Assembly: GCF_040529185.1 (NCBI RefSeq)
Contig: NZ_CP159510.1
Location: 1,736,001-1,800,000 of the forward strand
DNA length: 64,000 nt
Direction of reading: 5' to 3'
DNA from: Sporolactobacillus sp. Y61
GTDB lineage: Bacteria; Bacillota; Bacilli; Bacillales; Sporolactobacillaceae
In this document: positions 3,265 to 63,235 of the stretch, piece by piece
Numbering within the stretch: the first letter of the stretch is position 1
How the letters are laid out: every line of letters begins with the position of its first letter
Made by a program: the position numbers and the translations under genes
Notes under the pieces: model-generated
Databases searched by the model: none
Seen by the model: the letters and a program-made list of their open reading frames with translations, nothing else
What the model was told of the DNA's origin: nothing

Positions 3265-4200
3265 TCAAATCATTGTCATCAGGACAGGAATTTCAACCAG
3301 GCTGAGAAGTGTGGTTTCTGTCACCATCACTGCTGCGTAGTCCGAATCGGCATGGTAAAGTTCGGAGACGACCGGCGCATTGGTCATCACCGGCATCGCT
3401 GACTGCAGGATAAAAACCTGTTTCATCAATAGCGGCATCGGTGCCGGCAGGACGAGCAGGGTCATCAAGACAGGTGCAGCAATGAATCGTCCGACCAGGA
3501 CACCAATATTATCCCTGTTCAGGCTTAATTTGTTCAGTCCGGCCTGATGAATGGCGAAACCGATGAAGAGCATCGACAGAGGAATGGTCAGACCTCCGAT
3601 ATAATTCAGATCCGACATAAGGAATTTCGGCAGCCGAATATTCAGCAGGATCAGGATCACGCCGACAATAAAACCCATCAGAGGCGGTGAGAAGATTTTA
3701 CTTAACGTTTGTTTCAGACTCAGGCGTGAAGAGCTGTCCCCGTCTCTTTGAATCAGATAAACACCCAGAGTCCAGAAAAAAGTAGTATTGGCCATATAAT
3801 AAACAAGGACATAGGGCAGACTATCATCACCAAACAGCGCCATATTAACCGGCAAACCGATGAAAACGGTATTCGAATTACAGAACATCGATTTAAACAG
3901 ACCGCTGTGACTATTCGGGACGGCAAACAGTTTGACGGCTAAAAAAGAAAGGGCAAACAGGATAAACATGGACAAAAACGGAAAAAACAGGTCAGGCAGC
4001 AATACCATTAATTCCTTACTGGTAAAATCGGCGGTAATGGTACTGATCATATAAGCCGGCAGGGCGATCTGTGTGACCAGTCGCGCCATTAATTTACCGG
4101 TTTTCCGATCAAACCAGCCACGGTCGGTTAATACGTAGCCGATACTGATCATGACAAGGATCACAAGAACCCCCTGGATCCCCTGAAAAAACGTTCCCAA
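3265..4200 (-). CDS. AEC family transporter (organic-acid/malate carrier-like)
   Basis: Integral membrane carrier of the auxin-efflux-carrier family with about ten hydrophobic segments and the typical fold: an N-terminal bundle (VLVILVMISIGYVL), a central charged loop near residue 150 and a second bundle to the C-terminus. The family includes malate and other carboxylate permeases. A divergent MleR-like LysR gene next door makes an organic acid the likely substrate (inference). Start: ATG codons at 4233 and 4215 lack a ribosome site. TTG at 4200 follows GATGGAGG by 8 bases and gives the usual family N-terminus MGTFFQGIQ, so it is preferred. A strong terminator follows the stop. No malolactic enzyme gene is visible nearby. 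Confidence 0.88.
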   Translation of the reverse strand: MGTFFQGIQGVLVILVMISIGYVLTDRGWFDRKTGKLMARLVTQIALPAYMISTITADFTSKELMVLLPDLFFPFLSMFILFALSFLAVKLFAVPNSHSGLFKSMFCNSNTVFIGLPVNMALFGDDSLPYVLVYYMANTTFFWTLGVYLIQRDGDSSSRLSLKQTLSKIFSPPLMGFIVGVILILLNIRLPKFLMSDLNYIGGLTIPLSMLFIGFAIHQAGLNKLSLNRDNIGVLVGRFIAAPVLMTLLVLPAPMPLLMKQVFILQSAMPVMTNAPVVSELYHADSDYAAVMVTETTLLSLVEIPVLMTMI

Positions 4201-13688: not shown

Positions 13689-14405
13689 GTGCACGACATC
13701 TCATTTCATTTCGCATCGCTTGATTCTCGAGTCACTTGTCTGAATCAATCCTGCTTTACACTGATGCTGCCTGTTCACGGGTGCATCAGCATGGTCACAT
13801 CAGCAGGAAATAAAAGAATCAGCGGTACGCAGATTTGTCTGCTTCCAATTCATCATGCCTGTACCTTCTGTGCAGACGGATCGAACGAGAGCCTGGTCAT
13901 CGAAATTGATGAAATCTACGCGGTTCACTACTTTAAATCCAGATATACGGAGTGTGAGGGGGATGTTCTGGAGATGGACACCGTACTGCGTTCGGTGAAA
14001 GAGCTGTTGATCCGTGAAGTACTTCAACATCACCGGGATGAGTCCTTACTTCTTCTCAATTATCTGCTCCACAAGATTACCGAGAGACCGGTAACGCCTT
14101 CAATCCTTTTTATTCATGAACATTATGCTGAAAAAATTGACATCAAAGCTTTAGCTGCGATGGAACATTATACCCCTTCTTATTATTGTGACTGGTTTAA
14201 GCGGAAAATCGGAATGACCCCCCTTGCGTATATTCATTTTTTACGTATTCACAGAGCAAAAGAAATGCTTCATGACTCAAAGATGAGTGTACTGGACATC
14301 TCATACCAGGTCGGCTATGAGTATAATGCCTCTTTTACAAAAATGTTTAAAAAGTACGAACGAAAATCACCATCCGAATATCGGGCAGCCCTGCATCTCT
14401 CGTAA
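13689..14405 (+). CDS. AraC-family transcriptional regulator
   Basis: 238 residues: an N-terminal cupin-like sensing domain (about 1-125) and a C-terminal pair of helix-turn-helix motifs. The first is IDIKALAAMEHYTPSYYCDWFKRK and the second lies near VLDISYQVGYEYNASFTKMFKKYE, followed by the family SPSEYR ending. The start is GTG at 13689 with GGGAGG about ten bases ahead. It is divergent from the aquaglyceroporin gene with roughly 300 bases between them. The effector is unknown. The 41-bp repeat array begins 70 bases after its stop. Confidence 0.88.
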   Translation: MHDISFHFASLDSRVTCLNQSCFTLMLPVHGCISMVTSAGNKRISGTQICLLPIHHACTFCADGSNESLVIEIDEIYAVHYFKSRYTECEGDVLEMDTVLRSVKELLIREVLQHHRDESLLLLNYLLHKITERPVTPSILFIHEHYAEKIDIKALAAMEHYTPSYYCDWFKRKIGMTPLAYIHFLRIHRAKEMLHDSKMSVLDISYQVGYEYNASFTKMFKKYERKSPSEYRAALHLS

Positions 14406-14457
14406 AGCTGTTCAGACAGGATATTCAGATGGTGTGACATGAATGGACAGCAAACAC

Positions 14458-14482
14458 TCAGCCGGAGGTAACCTCCGGCTGA
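14458..14482. terminator. Perfect 12-bp palindrome at the edge of the repeat array
   Basis: TCAGCCGGAGGT-A-ACCTCCGGCTGA followed by TATATTTT. It can serve as the terminator of the AraC gene. Its right arm merges with the first GGCTGA element of the 41-bp array, so it could also be an array boundary. Confidence 0.65.
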
Positions 14483-15235
14483 TATATTTTCCGCCCGGCT
14501 GAAATGACGTGGAAACCGGCTGATATATTTTCCGCCCGGCTGAAATGACGTGGAGACCCGCTGATATATTTTCCGGCCGGCTGAAATGACGTGGAACCCG
14601 GCTGATATATTTTCTAGCCGGCTGAAATCAACTGGAGACCGGCTGATATATTTTCTAGCCGGCTGAAATGACGTGGAAATCGGCTGATATATTTTCCGCC
14701 CGGCTGAAATGACGTGGAGACCGGCTGATATATTTTCTAGCCGGCTGAAATGACGTGGAACCCGGCTGATATATTTTCTAGCCGGCTGAAATGACGTGGA
14801 AATCGGCTGATAAATTTCCGGCCCGGCTGAAAAGACCTGGAGATCGGCTGATAAATTTTCTGATCGGCTGAAATGACGTGGAAACCCGCTGGTATATTTT
14901 CTAGCCGGCTGAAATGACGTGGAGACCCGCTGATATATTTCCGGCCCGCTGAAATCAACTGGAGACCGGCTGATATATTTCCTGGCCCGCTGAAATGACG
15001 TGGAGATCGGCTGATAAATTTCCGGCCCGGCTGAAATGACGTGGAGACCGGCTGATAAATTTCCGGCCCGCTGAAATAAGTCGTAGACCGGCTGATAAAT
15101 TTTCCGCCCGGCTGAAAAGACCTGTAGATCGGCTGATAAATTTTCCAGCCCGGCTGAATTGACGTGGAAATCGGCTGATATATTTCCGGCCCGCTGAAAT
15201 CACGTGTCAACCCAGCTGATAACCCAGCTGATAAA
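14475..15235. repeat. Tandem array of about eighteen 41-bp units
   Basis: Units start every 41 bases (14475, 14516, 14557, 14598, 14639, 14680, 14721, 14762, 14803 and so on to about 15211). Four are 40 or 42 long, and a decayed partial copy lies at the right end. Each unit is two half-units opening with the same CCGGCTGA word. The first half continues TATATTTTCCGC. The second continues AATGACGTGGAA. Left units are nearly identical, while right units carry AAATTT variants and other changes. There are no unique spacers, so it is not CRISPR. Frames running through it only echo the repeat. Function is unknown. Confidence 0.95.
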
Positions 15236-15480
15236 TCTCGAATTTTGGCCAAATTTCCAGAGGGTCTGATCAAACACTTCCAGACAAATCTTCCAGCACT
15301 CCGGCGGCATGTGTGACCCCCTGTTTTTTTGATTGATGCCTTTCTTCAGCCGAAGCCTGCAGATTTCCGGGCCGACCACGCCACGTGTATGAATGATCTG
15401 TTCCGGGTTTTGCGCCTCAGAGAACAGGGGAGAGCAGGCGTGAGGGATTGCCGCATGATTTCGGCAAATTCGCTCACTGC
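15236..15480. other. Non-coding or decayed stretch between the array and cls
   Basis: About 245 bases with no convincing gene. A minus-strand frame (15200-15484) has no ribosome site and no recognisable family. The stretch contains the first copy of a 24-bp duplication of the cls 3' end. Confidence 0.5.
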
Positions 15481-15508
15481 TCACAGAACAGGGGAGAGCA
15501 GGCGTGAG
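15421..15508. repeat. 24-bp direct repeat duplicating the cls 3' end
   Basis: The 24-base word that begins AGAACAGGGGAGAG and ends CAGGCGTGAG occurs at 15421-15444 and again at 15485-15508. The second copy encodes the last residues of cardiolipin synthase (VSRLLSPVL, read on the minus strand). The first copy lies outside the gene. Confidence 0.9.
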
Positions 15509-16929
15509 ACCGATTCTTTGAATTTAATCAGTGCTGAGCGTTTCTTATAATCTTCCAACGTTAATTCCCGTGACAATCGCATATCCCGCTTGAAGATATC
15601 AGCCAGTTTTCGCGCCGTCTGCTCATGATAAATAAAAGCATTAACCTCAAAATTAAGACTGAAACTGCGAAAATCGAGATTGGATGTACCCACCGTTGCC
15701 AGCCGTTCATCTGCGATCATAGACTTGGCATGGAGAAATCCGTTTTGATACAGGTACACGCGTGCGCCTGCTTCAAGCAGCTGTCCGACATTGGAAAGAG
15801 TCGCCCAGTAGACGAAGGGATGATCCGGTTTGTTCGGAATCATGATCCGGACATCCACCTGTGAAAGCGAGGCAATAGAAATAGCGGTCAAGAGACTCTC
15901 ATCAGGAATCAGATAAGGGGTTTGAATATAGACGGTCTGTTTGGCCGACAGGATCATTTTAATAAACCCGTTTTTTATCTGCTCCCATTTTTTATCCGGT
16001 CCGCTTGATACAATCTGAATCCCGACTTCTCCGTAATGCTTCCTGTTATTAATCTTATAATATTGCTGAAAAGGGACCTGTTCGCCTGACGCCTGATTCC
16101 AGTCCAGGAGAAAGCGTGATTGAATACTGTTCACTGCTTCACCCATAATACGCAGATGCGTGTCACGCCAGTAACCGTATTTGGCACTCAGCCCCAAATA
16201 CTCATCGCCGACGTTAAAACCGCCGAGATAGCCGATTTCTCCGTCTATGATGACTAATTTTCGGTGGTTGCGATAATTAATTCGCAGGTTTAACAGCGGA
16301 AGACGCCCGGGGAAGAACGTCTGAAACTTGCCTCCCGCACGAGTCAGCCTCCGGACCAGCTTCTTTGAGAGGTGGCGTGATCCCTCATCATCAACGAGCA
16401 GACGGACGATCACGCCTTCTTCAGCTTTCTGCGCCAGTGTATCGATCATTTCATTACCGAGAAAATCGCTGCGGAAAATATAATACTCAATATGAATATG
16501 GTATTTTGCCGCTCTAATATCCTGAAGCAGCTGTCTGAACTTCTCTTCTCCGTCTGTGTAGATGGTCATGCTGTTGTTCAGCGTGAGCGGTGCTTCATCA
16601 TTATTCAGATTCATATAAATCAGTCCGTGATAATCTCTGAGAACAGGTTGGGTAAATGGCGGGTCGTTATTAATGATCGCCAGCATTTGCTTTTTTACCA
16701 GCTCACGGGTACGCAAGTGCACGTTATGGTCCCATTTAAAAATCTTACGGCGGCTGAGGTTCTGCCCGAAAACCAGATAAAAAATAAAACCGACAATCGG
16801 CATGAAGTTAAGAATCATCAGCCATGCCCAGGTGGAACTGATACTTTTTCTTTCCAGAAAGACAACTGTTGCTCCCAGGAAAATATTAGATAAAATAATG
16901 ACGCCCAGCAGTATAGTCGTAATGGTCAT
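15481..16929 (-). CDS. cls: Cardiolipin synthase
   Basis: Membrane phospholipase-D-superfamily enzyme joining two phosphatidylglycerols into cardiolipin and glycerol. The 482 residues comprise two N-terminal membrane segments (about 1-65) and two HKD catalytic motifs, HRKLVIIDGEIGYLGGFN near residue 224 and HAKSMIADERLATVGTSN near 400. The C-terminus KFKESVSRLLSPVL is the usual family ending. Length matches Bacillus ClsA. Start ATG at 16929 with AAAGGATG upstream. It stands alone. The gene's last 24 bases are duplicated just downstream. Confidence 0.95.
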   Translation of the reverse strand: MTITTILLGVIILSNIFLGATVVFLERKSISSTWAWLMILNFMPIVGFIFYLVFGQNLSRRKIFKWDHNVHLRTRELVKKQMLAIINNDPPFTQPVLRDYHGLIYMNLNNDEAPLTLNNSMTIYTDGEEKFRQLLQDIRAAKYHIHIEYYIFRSDFLGNEMIDTLAQKAEEGVIVRLLVDDEGSRHLSKKLVRRLTRAGGKFQTFFPGRLPLLNLRINYRNHRKLVIIDGEIGYLGGFNVGDEYLGLSAKYGYWRDTHLRIMGEAVNSIQSRFLLDWNQASGEQVPFQQYYKINNRKHYGEVGIQIVSSGPDKKWEQIKNGFIKMILSAKQTVYIQTPYLIPDESLLTAISIASLSQVDVRIMIPNKPDHPFVYWATLSNVGQLLEAGARVYLYQNGFLHAKSMIADERLATVGTSNLDFRSFSLNFEVNAFIYHEQTARKLADIFKRDMRLSRELTLEDYKKRSALIKFKESVSRLLSPVL

Positions 16930-56557: not shown

Positions 56558-57355
56558 TTATTCTCCAATAAATTCCTGAGTCCAGTACGTGCCGTATGAT
56601 CCACCTTCAACAAAGCCGACACCAATTGTTGTAAAATTAGCGTTGAGAATATTCGCACGGTGTCCCGGGCTGTTCATCCAGCCCTGAACGACTTCTTCCG
56701 GGGTTTTTTGACCGGCTGCAATATTTTCTCCGGCTGCTCTATAGTTGATTCCGTATTTTTTCATCATATCAAAAGGAGATCCGTAGGTCGGTGACTGGTG
56801 GTCAAAGTAATTCCTGTCTCGCATATCCTGCGATTTGGCACGTGCCATTTTCGCCAGCTGGGCATTTCCCGATTTCAGCGGCGCCAGTCCGGCTTTTGTT
56901 CGTTCCTGATTCGTCAGTTCAACGACTTTCTTTTCAAATGCATTCATCTGACTCGTTGATTGCTGATGATCAGAAGGTTCAGGACTTTTGTCCGGTGCCG
57001 GTTTTTCCGGAGTTGCGGGTTTTTCCGGGGCTGCCGGCTTTGCCGGTGCCTCAGGCTTTTGTGGTTGAGCTGCCTGTCCCGGGTTTTTCTGCGGCTGATC
57101 TGTCTTTTGACCGATATCCACCACGATCGGCTGATTTTTCAGATGAGAAAGATCAACCTGAATGCCGAACTTTTTCAGCAGTTCATTGACGTCGGGCAAC
57201 TGATTGTCCTTCAACTTCCACAGATTTAAAAGGTCAGTCGCAGCAACTTTGAGCTGGACATTATTTGGAAGAGCTGCAGCTTCTGCGTGTCCCCCTGAAA
57301 CGAATGGCAAGGCAAGCGACCCAGCAAGAGTTAAAGCAAGAATTTTTTTGAACAT
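56558..57355 (-). CDS. Secreted CAP/SCP-domain protein (YkwD-like)
   Basis: 265 residues: a Sec signal peptide (MFKKILALTLAGSLALPFVSGGHAEA, likely cut near 26), a short domain to about 85 that I do not recognise, a Pro/Lys/Ala-rich linker (about 88-130, PAKPAAPEKPATPEKP) suited to spanning the wall, and a C-terminal CAP domain (about 137-265). The CAP motifs are NYFDHQSPTYG, AAGENIAAGQK, VVQGWMNSPGHRANIL and TIGVGF. The His/Glu pair is intact. Proteins of this type occur in Bacillus spores and walls, with unclear function. The ATG follows AGGAGGGAGTTACAAAAC. A possible SigI-type promoter lies upstream. Confidence 0.9.
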   Translation of the reverse strand: MFKKILALTLAGSLALPFVSGGHAEAAALPNNVQLKVAATDLLNLWKLKDNQLPDVNELLKKFGIQVDLSHLKNQPIVVDIGQKTDQPQKNPGQAAQPQKPEAPAKPAAPEKPATPEKPAPDKSPEPSDHQQSTSQMNAFEKKVVELTNQERTKAGLAPLKSGNAQLAKMARAKSQDMRDRNYFDHQSPTYGSPFDMMKKYGINYRAAGENIAAGQKTPEEVVQGWMNSPGHRANILNANFTTIGVGFVEGGSYGTYWTQEFIGE

Positions 57356-61967: not shown

Positions 61968-63235
61968 ATGAAGAAAAAAGGAATTATATCAGCAACGCTT
62001 ATCGGCGGACTGGTTGTAGCAGGAACGGGTGCCGGAGGAGTAGATCAGGCAAAGGCAGCTCCTTCGGGAAATGCAGCAAGTTTGGCCAGACAGGGTATTG
62101 GTCAGCAATACAGATGGGGAGCTAACGACTGCTCCGGCTTTACGATGAAAGTCTTTGCCCGTTTAGGGGTGAATCTGCCTCACAGTTCTGCGGGGCAGGC
62201 AGCGTACGGTGCTTATGTCAGCAGAGATAACCTTCAGCCGGGGATCTCGTCTTCTTTAACACCAATAATAAAGGAATTTCTCATGTGGGGATCTATGTGG
62301 GCAATAACCAGATGATCAGTGCTGAAAATGAAGAAACAGGTGTCCGTCAGACGCAAATTTTTGATGGCGGTGCATCCAGCTACTGGGAACCCAAATATGT
62401 GACCGCCAGACGGATTTCTGAAAGCACCCCACCCGCTCAGAAAGCGAAAAAATCTGTACGTCCTGCAGTAAGACAGGCCGCACCGGCTTCGAACACGACT
62501 CAGAAAGCCACAAGCAACAATCAGGCGACGCCGTCTGGAACCTATAAAATTCAGGACGGGGATACGCTGTCAGGAATCAGTCAGAAGACAGATGTATCGG
62601 TGTCTCAGCTGAAAGCACTGAACGGGCTGAACTCGAATCAGATTAGATCCGGCCAAGTACTCCGGCTGAAGGGCAATCCGATTTCGCCATCCAAAGCTCC
62701 TTCAAAGGTTTCTGCAGCAAAACCGGCTAAAGCTTCTGCAGAAAAGCCGACAACAGCTTCTGCAGCAAAACCGACAACAGCTTCTGCAGCGGAACCGGCT
62801 AAAGTTCCTGCAGCAAAACCGAAAGCACAGACGGTTAATAAGTCAGGAGTTAAGGAAGCGGCGCAGCCTGCACAGTCGGCAGAACGTCCTGCCGCTGCTC
62901 AATCAGATAAAGTGTCCGGCGGAACTTATTTCGTCCGGACGGGTGACAGCCTGTGGGCGATTTCAAGACATCACGGAATCAGCGTATCCGAAATTAAACT
63001 GAACAATCATTTGAAGTCGGATGTGATTTATCCGGGTCAAAAGCTTAATTTCAATGTGCAGAATAAAGGCCAGACGCATAATCAGGCAAATAAAACATAC
63101 GCGATTAAGCGCGGGGATACCCTGTGGGATATTGCAAGAGCGCATGGCACGACAGTCAGCAAGCTGATGAAAGAAAATCATCTGCATTCTTCTCTGATTT
63201 TCGCAGGTGATCAATTAAAGTTGCCGAAAAAATAA
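61968..63235 (+). pseudogene. Secreted NlpC/P60 endopeptidase with three LysM domains, split by a one-base frameshift
   Basis: Predicted D,L-endopeptidase that cuts wall peptides. Frame 1 gives a signal peptide ([21 protein letters not shown]) and the catalytic Cys ([18 protein letters not shown]). Frame 2 (from 62285) gives the catalytic His region ([14 protein letters not shown]), an Ala/Lys/Pro linker with short repeats and three LysM domains (GDTLSGISQKTDVS, GDSLWAISRHHGIS, GDTLWDIARAHGTT). One extra G in the GGGG run at 62240-62243 joins them through [22 protein letters not shown]. The order, catalytic domain first and LysM last, is the reverse of LytE. The ATG follows CAGGAGG. A WalR box and sigI-rsgI upstream suggest dual control as for lytE. 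Confidence 0.9.

Follow-up and report, generated by a model that had tools for sequence, protein, structure and literature searches.

A phased array of 41-bp repeats between araC and cls in Sporolactobacillus sp. Y61, one of many related arrays and a candidate protein-binding locus

The window analysed here is a stretch of 64,000 nucleotides that covers positions 1,736,001-1,800,000 of the one-contig genome of Sporolactobacillus sp. Y61 (3,224,419 bases, here G000). An original prediction, made from the letters of the window, placed an array of about eighteen 41-bp units between an araC gene and cls. Pfam domains confirm the identity of both genes, which converge across the array. The features of the locus, numbered from the first base of the window, are as follows.

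13689..14405, plus strand: araC-type regulator gene, the upstream flank (Pfam HTH_18/HTH_AraC)
14458..14482, no strand: inverted repeat TCAGCCGGAGGT-A-ACCTCCGGCTGA, with the first word of the array inside its right arm (read from the sequence)
14475..15206, plus strand: array of eighteen 41-bp units (Tandem Repeats Finder, segmentation, word count against shuffles)
Each unit of this array: a GGCTGATAWA-type half-unit (pitch 20) followed by a GGCTGAAAT-type half-unit (pitch 21)
15207..15235, plus strand: degenerate right end with AACCCAGCTGAT twice (15209-15234) and weak words (period-12 row of Tandem Repeats Finder, sequence)
15481..16929, minus strand: cls, a phospholipase-D-type synthase gene, the convergent flank (Pfam PLDc_2, PLDc, PLDc_N)

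The araC-type regulator was considered as a reader of the array and rejected; it occurs in each of the 15 genomes of the genus that were searched, array-poor ones included, and is therefore probably not the reader. In 13 out of 13 congeners (L239-L251) the araC-cls interval is occupied by a gene for a 4HBT-type thioesterase (Pfam 4HBT_2) and yielded no tandem repeat. The motif of the thioesterase gene is absent from the araC-cls interval of G000 (window 14406-15480) and from that of G018, a genome of the same species, and a tblastn search for the thioesterase in the window and in 16 stretches of G000 gave no match (best E 2.8). Close to the 3' end of cls, AGAACAGGGGAGAGCAGGCGTGAG occurs twice (15430-15515), the second copy entering the end of the annotated ORF. 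Other tandem repeats of the window lie at 62703-62822 (24 bp, 5 copies) and 56996-57046 (18 bp, 2.8 copies) and are probably coding.

Tandem Repeats Finder reports the array at 14475-15206 with a period of 41 and 17.9 copies. By segmentation it comprises 18 units, or 38 half-unit positions of which the last is spurious, so that the predicted number of units holds. The prediction of two words per unit, 20-21 bases apart, holds as well: the half-units start with GGCTGA and their steps mostly alternate between 20 and 21 bp, with some of 19 and one of 22. The exact word GGCTGA stands at 29 of the 38 word positions, and CGCTGA, CGCTGG or AGCTGA at eight others. CGGCTGAWWW is found 36 times in the window, 29 of these in the array, while 100 shuffles gave a mean of 1.40 and a maximum of 4; the seven matches outside the array represent a modest excess over the 1.4 expected. 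The left copies had been described as nearly identical and the right ones as diverged. This gradient is real but modest, with a mean pairwise identity of 0.882 among the left nine units and 0.786 among the right nine. The palindrome noted beside the array consists of two 12-base arms and one central base (14458-14482), and a matching hairpin is seen at the G018 array, which occupies the same araC-cls position and has 25 words.

The array is not protein-coding, as 41 bp is no multiple of three and the overlapping ORF on the minus strand covers only part of it; this ORF of 178 aa was set aside as a by-product. A CRISPR array was also rejected, because the spacers are themselves repeated and no cas gene was noticed among the listed ORFs of the window.

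A search for the unit elsewhere in the chromosome, proposed along with the prediction, found the GGCTGA word at a pitch of 20-21 bp at no fewer than 15 loci of G000, all intergenic, in 16 stretches; this count is based on 100 of 132 word places, and further weaker arrays may exist. The loci carry from 3 to about 55 words each, and the spacer sequence varies between them while word and pitch are common to all. Sorted by hand according to ORF layout, six of 15 loci are convergent, six tandem and three divergent, although L144 has a doubtful left gene and, at L146, the array itself reads as a long antisense ORF. No neighbour gene common to the inspected loci was seen, nor, by eye, any strand bias relative to replication. 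With so many dispersed loci, the suggestion of a single partition-like locus is unlikely. In its exact form the triple CGGCTGA pattern is confined to two of 26 family genomes, both of the same species: it occurs 81 times in G000, 51 times in G018 and not at all in the remaining 24.

The second proposed check, on copy number between strains, was made with pairwise alignments of ten G018 array stretches, all of which match G000 arrays. Differences were counted at 15 of 1195 positions of GGCTGA, against 302 of 2857 in the remainder of the unit, a figure inflated by mis-paired units in the more diverged arrays; for the flanks the count is 240 of 15583, which includes the L143/L164 flank with its anchor off by about 3 kb. 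The alignment of L147 runs into a contig end. In the five least diverged arrays (L142, L143, L144, L145 and L149, ranked by overall difference and some of them with large gaps) no word position differs (0/384) while 39 of 920 positions in the rest of the unit do; the corresponding values for the five more diverged arrays are 15/811 and 263/1937. The alignment of L144, which is free of gaps, gives 0/48 and 10/114. About 20 of 23 gaps of at least 12 nt have lengths that deviate by no more than 2 nt from a multiple of 20-21 (alignments of L143 and L147 left out), and the two strains differ in copy number mostly by whole half-units. Substitutions amount to 2.5 to 7% at the four A/T positions after the word and to 7 to 17% at later positions. 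The conserved word is about 10 bp long, GGCTGA plus a more weakly kept A/T run, and returns every 20-21 bp, with the bases between varying freely.

A more general pattern, GCTGNWWW three times at a pitch of 20-22, is present in 83 of 397 genomes of the order and in 45 of 135 genera; its distribution includes other families and is patchy. Four or more matches were counted by hand in 38 genomes and, with the reversed pattern as control, in eight, three of which (G018, G109, G302) are also among the 38. Some matches in these 38 genomes may be coding, since the arrays of G361 are largely within ORFs and one array of G231 is within an ORF. The latter (L299, 3556-3723) is a 21-bp array of GCTGCTTTCGCTCGGGT inside an ORF of 189 aa; G231 has several such arrays, which are either coding or a further dialect. 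In G271 two 21-bp arrays fall in different frames, which fits non-coding repeats. In a set of 13 congeners plus four further genomes of the family, the GCTG pattern matches four genomes, and the reversed control matches G011 (3 times), G013 (once), G016 (3) and G020 (24).

The words are genome-specific and form dialects. G016 uses GGCTGGTAAA at 21 bp in about 20 places, two of which probably belong to a single array that is interrupted by contig ends. In G022 (L232-L236, L270, L309-L311) two dialects coexist: GGCTGATAWA with a pitch of 20 bp in 6 places and GGCTGGATT with one of 21 bp in 7. G013 and G019 have CGCTGAT at 20 bp. Because the pattern left the fifth base and the choice between A and T free, these dialects are not made by the query. 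Genus g36 includes species in which CGCTGATAWA at 20 bp predominates and others in which GGCTGGATT at 21 bp does; both kinds are found in G124. At the loci examined, GCTGG words step by 21 bp in 45 of 46 cases, and in 15 genomes 524 of 562 word steps are 20 or 21 bp when 17-24 is allowed. A profile of 37 three-word pieces finds matches in 12 of 16 genomes, counts that are partly given by construction as the pieces were taken from nine of these 16. With this profile (150 candidates scored per genome) members of one genus can differ strongly, at least 28 matches in G044 against none in G087 and at least 22 in G133 against one in G234, where G044 and G133 both contributed pieces.

Six intervals of G000 were compared, each in some of the congeners. 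On the 3' side of metE an array is present in G000, G016 and G022, whereas G014 and G011 have none; in G022 the element is on the strand opposite to that in G000, which is compatible with a new insertion and with retention alike. The region behind atpC (named by eye) carries an array in G000, in G016 and also in G363, a genome of another family, whereas G022 has two words at this position. The L145 interval holds arrays in G000 and G016, in the latter at two contig ends, and two small transporter-like genes without an array in G022, G014 and G011 (L278-L280). No array was found in the argH-MFS and L148 intervals of the congeners examined. At the three common positions (metE, atpC, L145) each array is written in the dialect of its own genome.

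Taken together, we consider it somewhat probable (roughly 0.55) that the array belongs to a set of non-coding binding arrays spread over the genome, the words of which are read by a putative protein. This protein would be a sequence-specific binder of double-stranded DNA, touching a single word in every two turns of the helix. It may stack head to tail on the array and so wrap or bridge the DNA in nucleoid organisation, or else be titrated by the array. A word of one turn, a free turn and then a word again would suit such a stacking protein. Selection on binding would keep words and pitch while the spacers drift, arrays would grow and shrink by whole half-units, and a change in the specificity of the protein, or a takeover by another dialect, would change the words at many loci.

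Among the interpretations offered originally, the multi-site protein-binding array fits best, given that the word is kept, the spacers are free, the pitch is near two turns and the orientation to neighbouring transcription is balanced. Curved DNA did not survive the proposed calculation, since intrinsic curvature is not raised for the array (z -0.8); elsewhere the picture is mixed, four of 13 arrays having a z above 2 and one below -2 (both calculated with wedge parameters). The placement of the words on one face of the DNA is roughly correct, but arrays of exactly 20 bp would drift slowly round a helix of 10.5 bp, so that a superhelical path is likelier than a strict single face. The recombination-prone satellite, with its gain and loss of whole units, fits too, but ranks below the binding array as its strongest rival.

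According to this rival, which is unlikely yet has to be taken seriously, the half-units form a neutral or selfish satellite that multiplies by slippage and is sometimes copied to other intergenic sites. The apparent conservation of the words would then reflect a predominance of young copies or a requirement of the copying process, at no gain to the cell. The patchy distribution, in which one species has tens of matches while another of its genus lacks them altogether, agrees with this, as do the change of copy number by whole units and a unit of about 103 bp that is common to L141, L148 and L152. Against a satellite, near-invariant words persist in arrays with heterogeneous, old-looking spacers, the pitch is held where the spacers are not, and some positions are kept between species. 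For the binding array in turn, the existence of close relatives without arrays means that the function is dispensable. Selection is expected to be weak with hundreds of redundant words, and a copying bias could also keep them.

It is quite improbable that the repeats act at the RNA level, as structured or protein-binding RNA after transcription, a role that Subirana and Messeguer proposed for such repeats in the parts of PMC8161180 covered here. The plus strand does fold better than 20 shuffles (z -3.06, minus strand z -0.91). However, in tandem intergenic regions 12 arrays are sense and 13 antisense to neighbouring transcription (by hand, from ORF tables), a balance that counts against a role in the transcripts of the neighbours; no Rfam match was found on the arrays of 18 loci, and an RNA needs no fixed two-turn pitch of DNA. 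On average the flanks of 36 elements fold slightly better with their own partner (-27.1 kcal/mol) than with strangers (-24.8 kcal/mol), but worse with their own within G101 and G133, and this comparison is given no weight here. A strong G-then-C skew of the flanks is present only in G363.

We give very little weight to a non-autonomous mobile element that is moved by a transposase binding the repeated words. The elements are discrete and dispersed, and in several short ones of G363 and G101 (L255, L256, L263, L257, L268) TGTCGA stands directly before the first word, a sequence which we take to resemble a Spo0A box. But the 16 stretches of G000 have no common flanks among the best 60 matches, except for one gene similarity between L150 and L151, and the spacers differ from copy to copy. 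The sole transposase noticed is an IS3-like pair in G363, placed within an array but, as judged by eye, bounded by ends of its own. These two ORFs (named by eye) split the array at L261, 4436-6249.

Plasmid iterons and some partition sites are direct repeats at a two-turn pitch, as the array is, but an origin as iteron or centromere-like sites of plasmids or phages, serving replication, partition or plasmid exclusion, is hardly credible, because the flanking genes are araC and cls and not rep or par genes, a blastn search with the array in 72,556 plasmid and 50,697 phage records, blind to other dialects, gave no match, and the pattern matches in viruses look coding or like microsatellites with one exception, L291, a viral-labelled contig in which GGCTGGTAAA occurs three times at a pitch of 21 bp next to phage-like genes. 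In total 61 viral stretches have the triple pattern; 53 of these fall within runs of 100 or more codons without a stop, four are 7-bp microsatellites and four homogeneous 21-bp repeats. Seven further stretches include six that look coding by eye, and L291 is the seventh and the only array-like match of the viral collection. Its words (about 3549-3630) have palindromic spacers and apparently lie between genes, with phage-like ORFs adjoining.

Returning to the binding array, a wider and more tentative proposal is that the arrays with a GCTG core in the whole order are one system, in which a DNA-binding protein that polymerises head to tail would exist in a few specificities, each with its own word and pitch, and a switch of specificity would change the words together. 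If so, GCTGG words would belong to 21 bp and GCTGA words to 20 or 21, switches would happen within genera and recur between families, and the system would be a bacterial analogue of the co-evolution of satellites and centromere proteins. Should the core, the dialects and the constraint on the word hold, they would point to a trans-acting reader of the described but unexplained repeats of 20-21 nt. They would also provide a bait with built-in controls, through the scrambling of words or of spacers and through the comparison of a genome's own dialect with a foreign one, and the gene of the reader could be traced in pairs of close relatives of which one has arrays and the other lacks them.

Several known systems can be compared with the array. 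In plasmid iterons and in partition sites such as pSK41 parC, the stb repeats of R388 and sopC of F, a stacking protein binds direct or tandem repeats, some of about 20 bp. Such sites form one locus adjoining rep or par genes; in contrast, the arrays described here are spread over at least 15 chromosomal loci, and no rep or par neighbour was noticed. DNA uptake sequences of Neisseriaceae have genome-specific variants of a short word round a fixed core, much like the dialects, but they are single dispersed words and not phased arrays.

With the staphylococcal STAR elements (Purves et al. 2012, PMC3532100), as far as described in the parts of that paper covered here, the arrays share intergenic direct repeats, a conserved motif, locus-specific spacers, changes in copy number, a patchy distribution and an unexplained function. 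STAR elements, which are reported to occupy different loci in each species, have a 14-bp GC-rich motif with at least 40 bp between motifs and lack a two-turn pitch; the array, with its word GGCTGA(A/T)4 every 20-21 bp, therefore stands outside this family.

The closest match is the class reported by Subirana and Messeguer (2021, PMC8161180). The parts of the main text covered here describe tandem repeats of a constant 20-21 nt in Bacillus and other bacteria, variable in sequence with a short word in all repeats, with several arrays per genome, species-specific, patchy and mostly non-coding; repeats of 40-41 nt are called related, and a protein polymerising on DNA is proposed besides the role in RNA. 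The array agrees in size (half-units of 20/21, unit of 41), in its variable sequence with a short characteristic word, in its many loci with a species-specific word and in being non-coding, whereas some 21-bp arrays elsewhere (G361, G231) may code. Sporolactobacillus is not named in those parts of the main text. In the literature searched, which covered parts of main texts, nothing on the GGCTGA family appears beyond the papers on the class. The original prediction named a unit scattered as a known interspersed repeat as an outcome against it; the word is indeed scattered and its kind is published, but the GGCTGA family itself is not described in these texts. The same parts of PMC8161180 report no sequence conservation between species and give TCGCGG for the signal in the 21-nt repeats of B. 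weihaiensis, and here the arrays differ, as a GCTG core recurs across families in dialects with their own pitch. By the features described there the array is a member of this published kind of constant-size bacterial repeats, to which the present analysis adds, relative to the same parts of the text, the common core, the dialects with their pitch, the test of word against spacer and the common positions occupied by different dialects.
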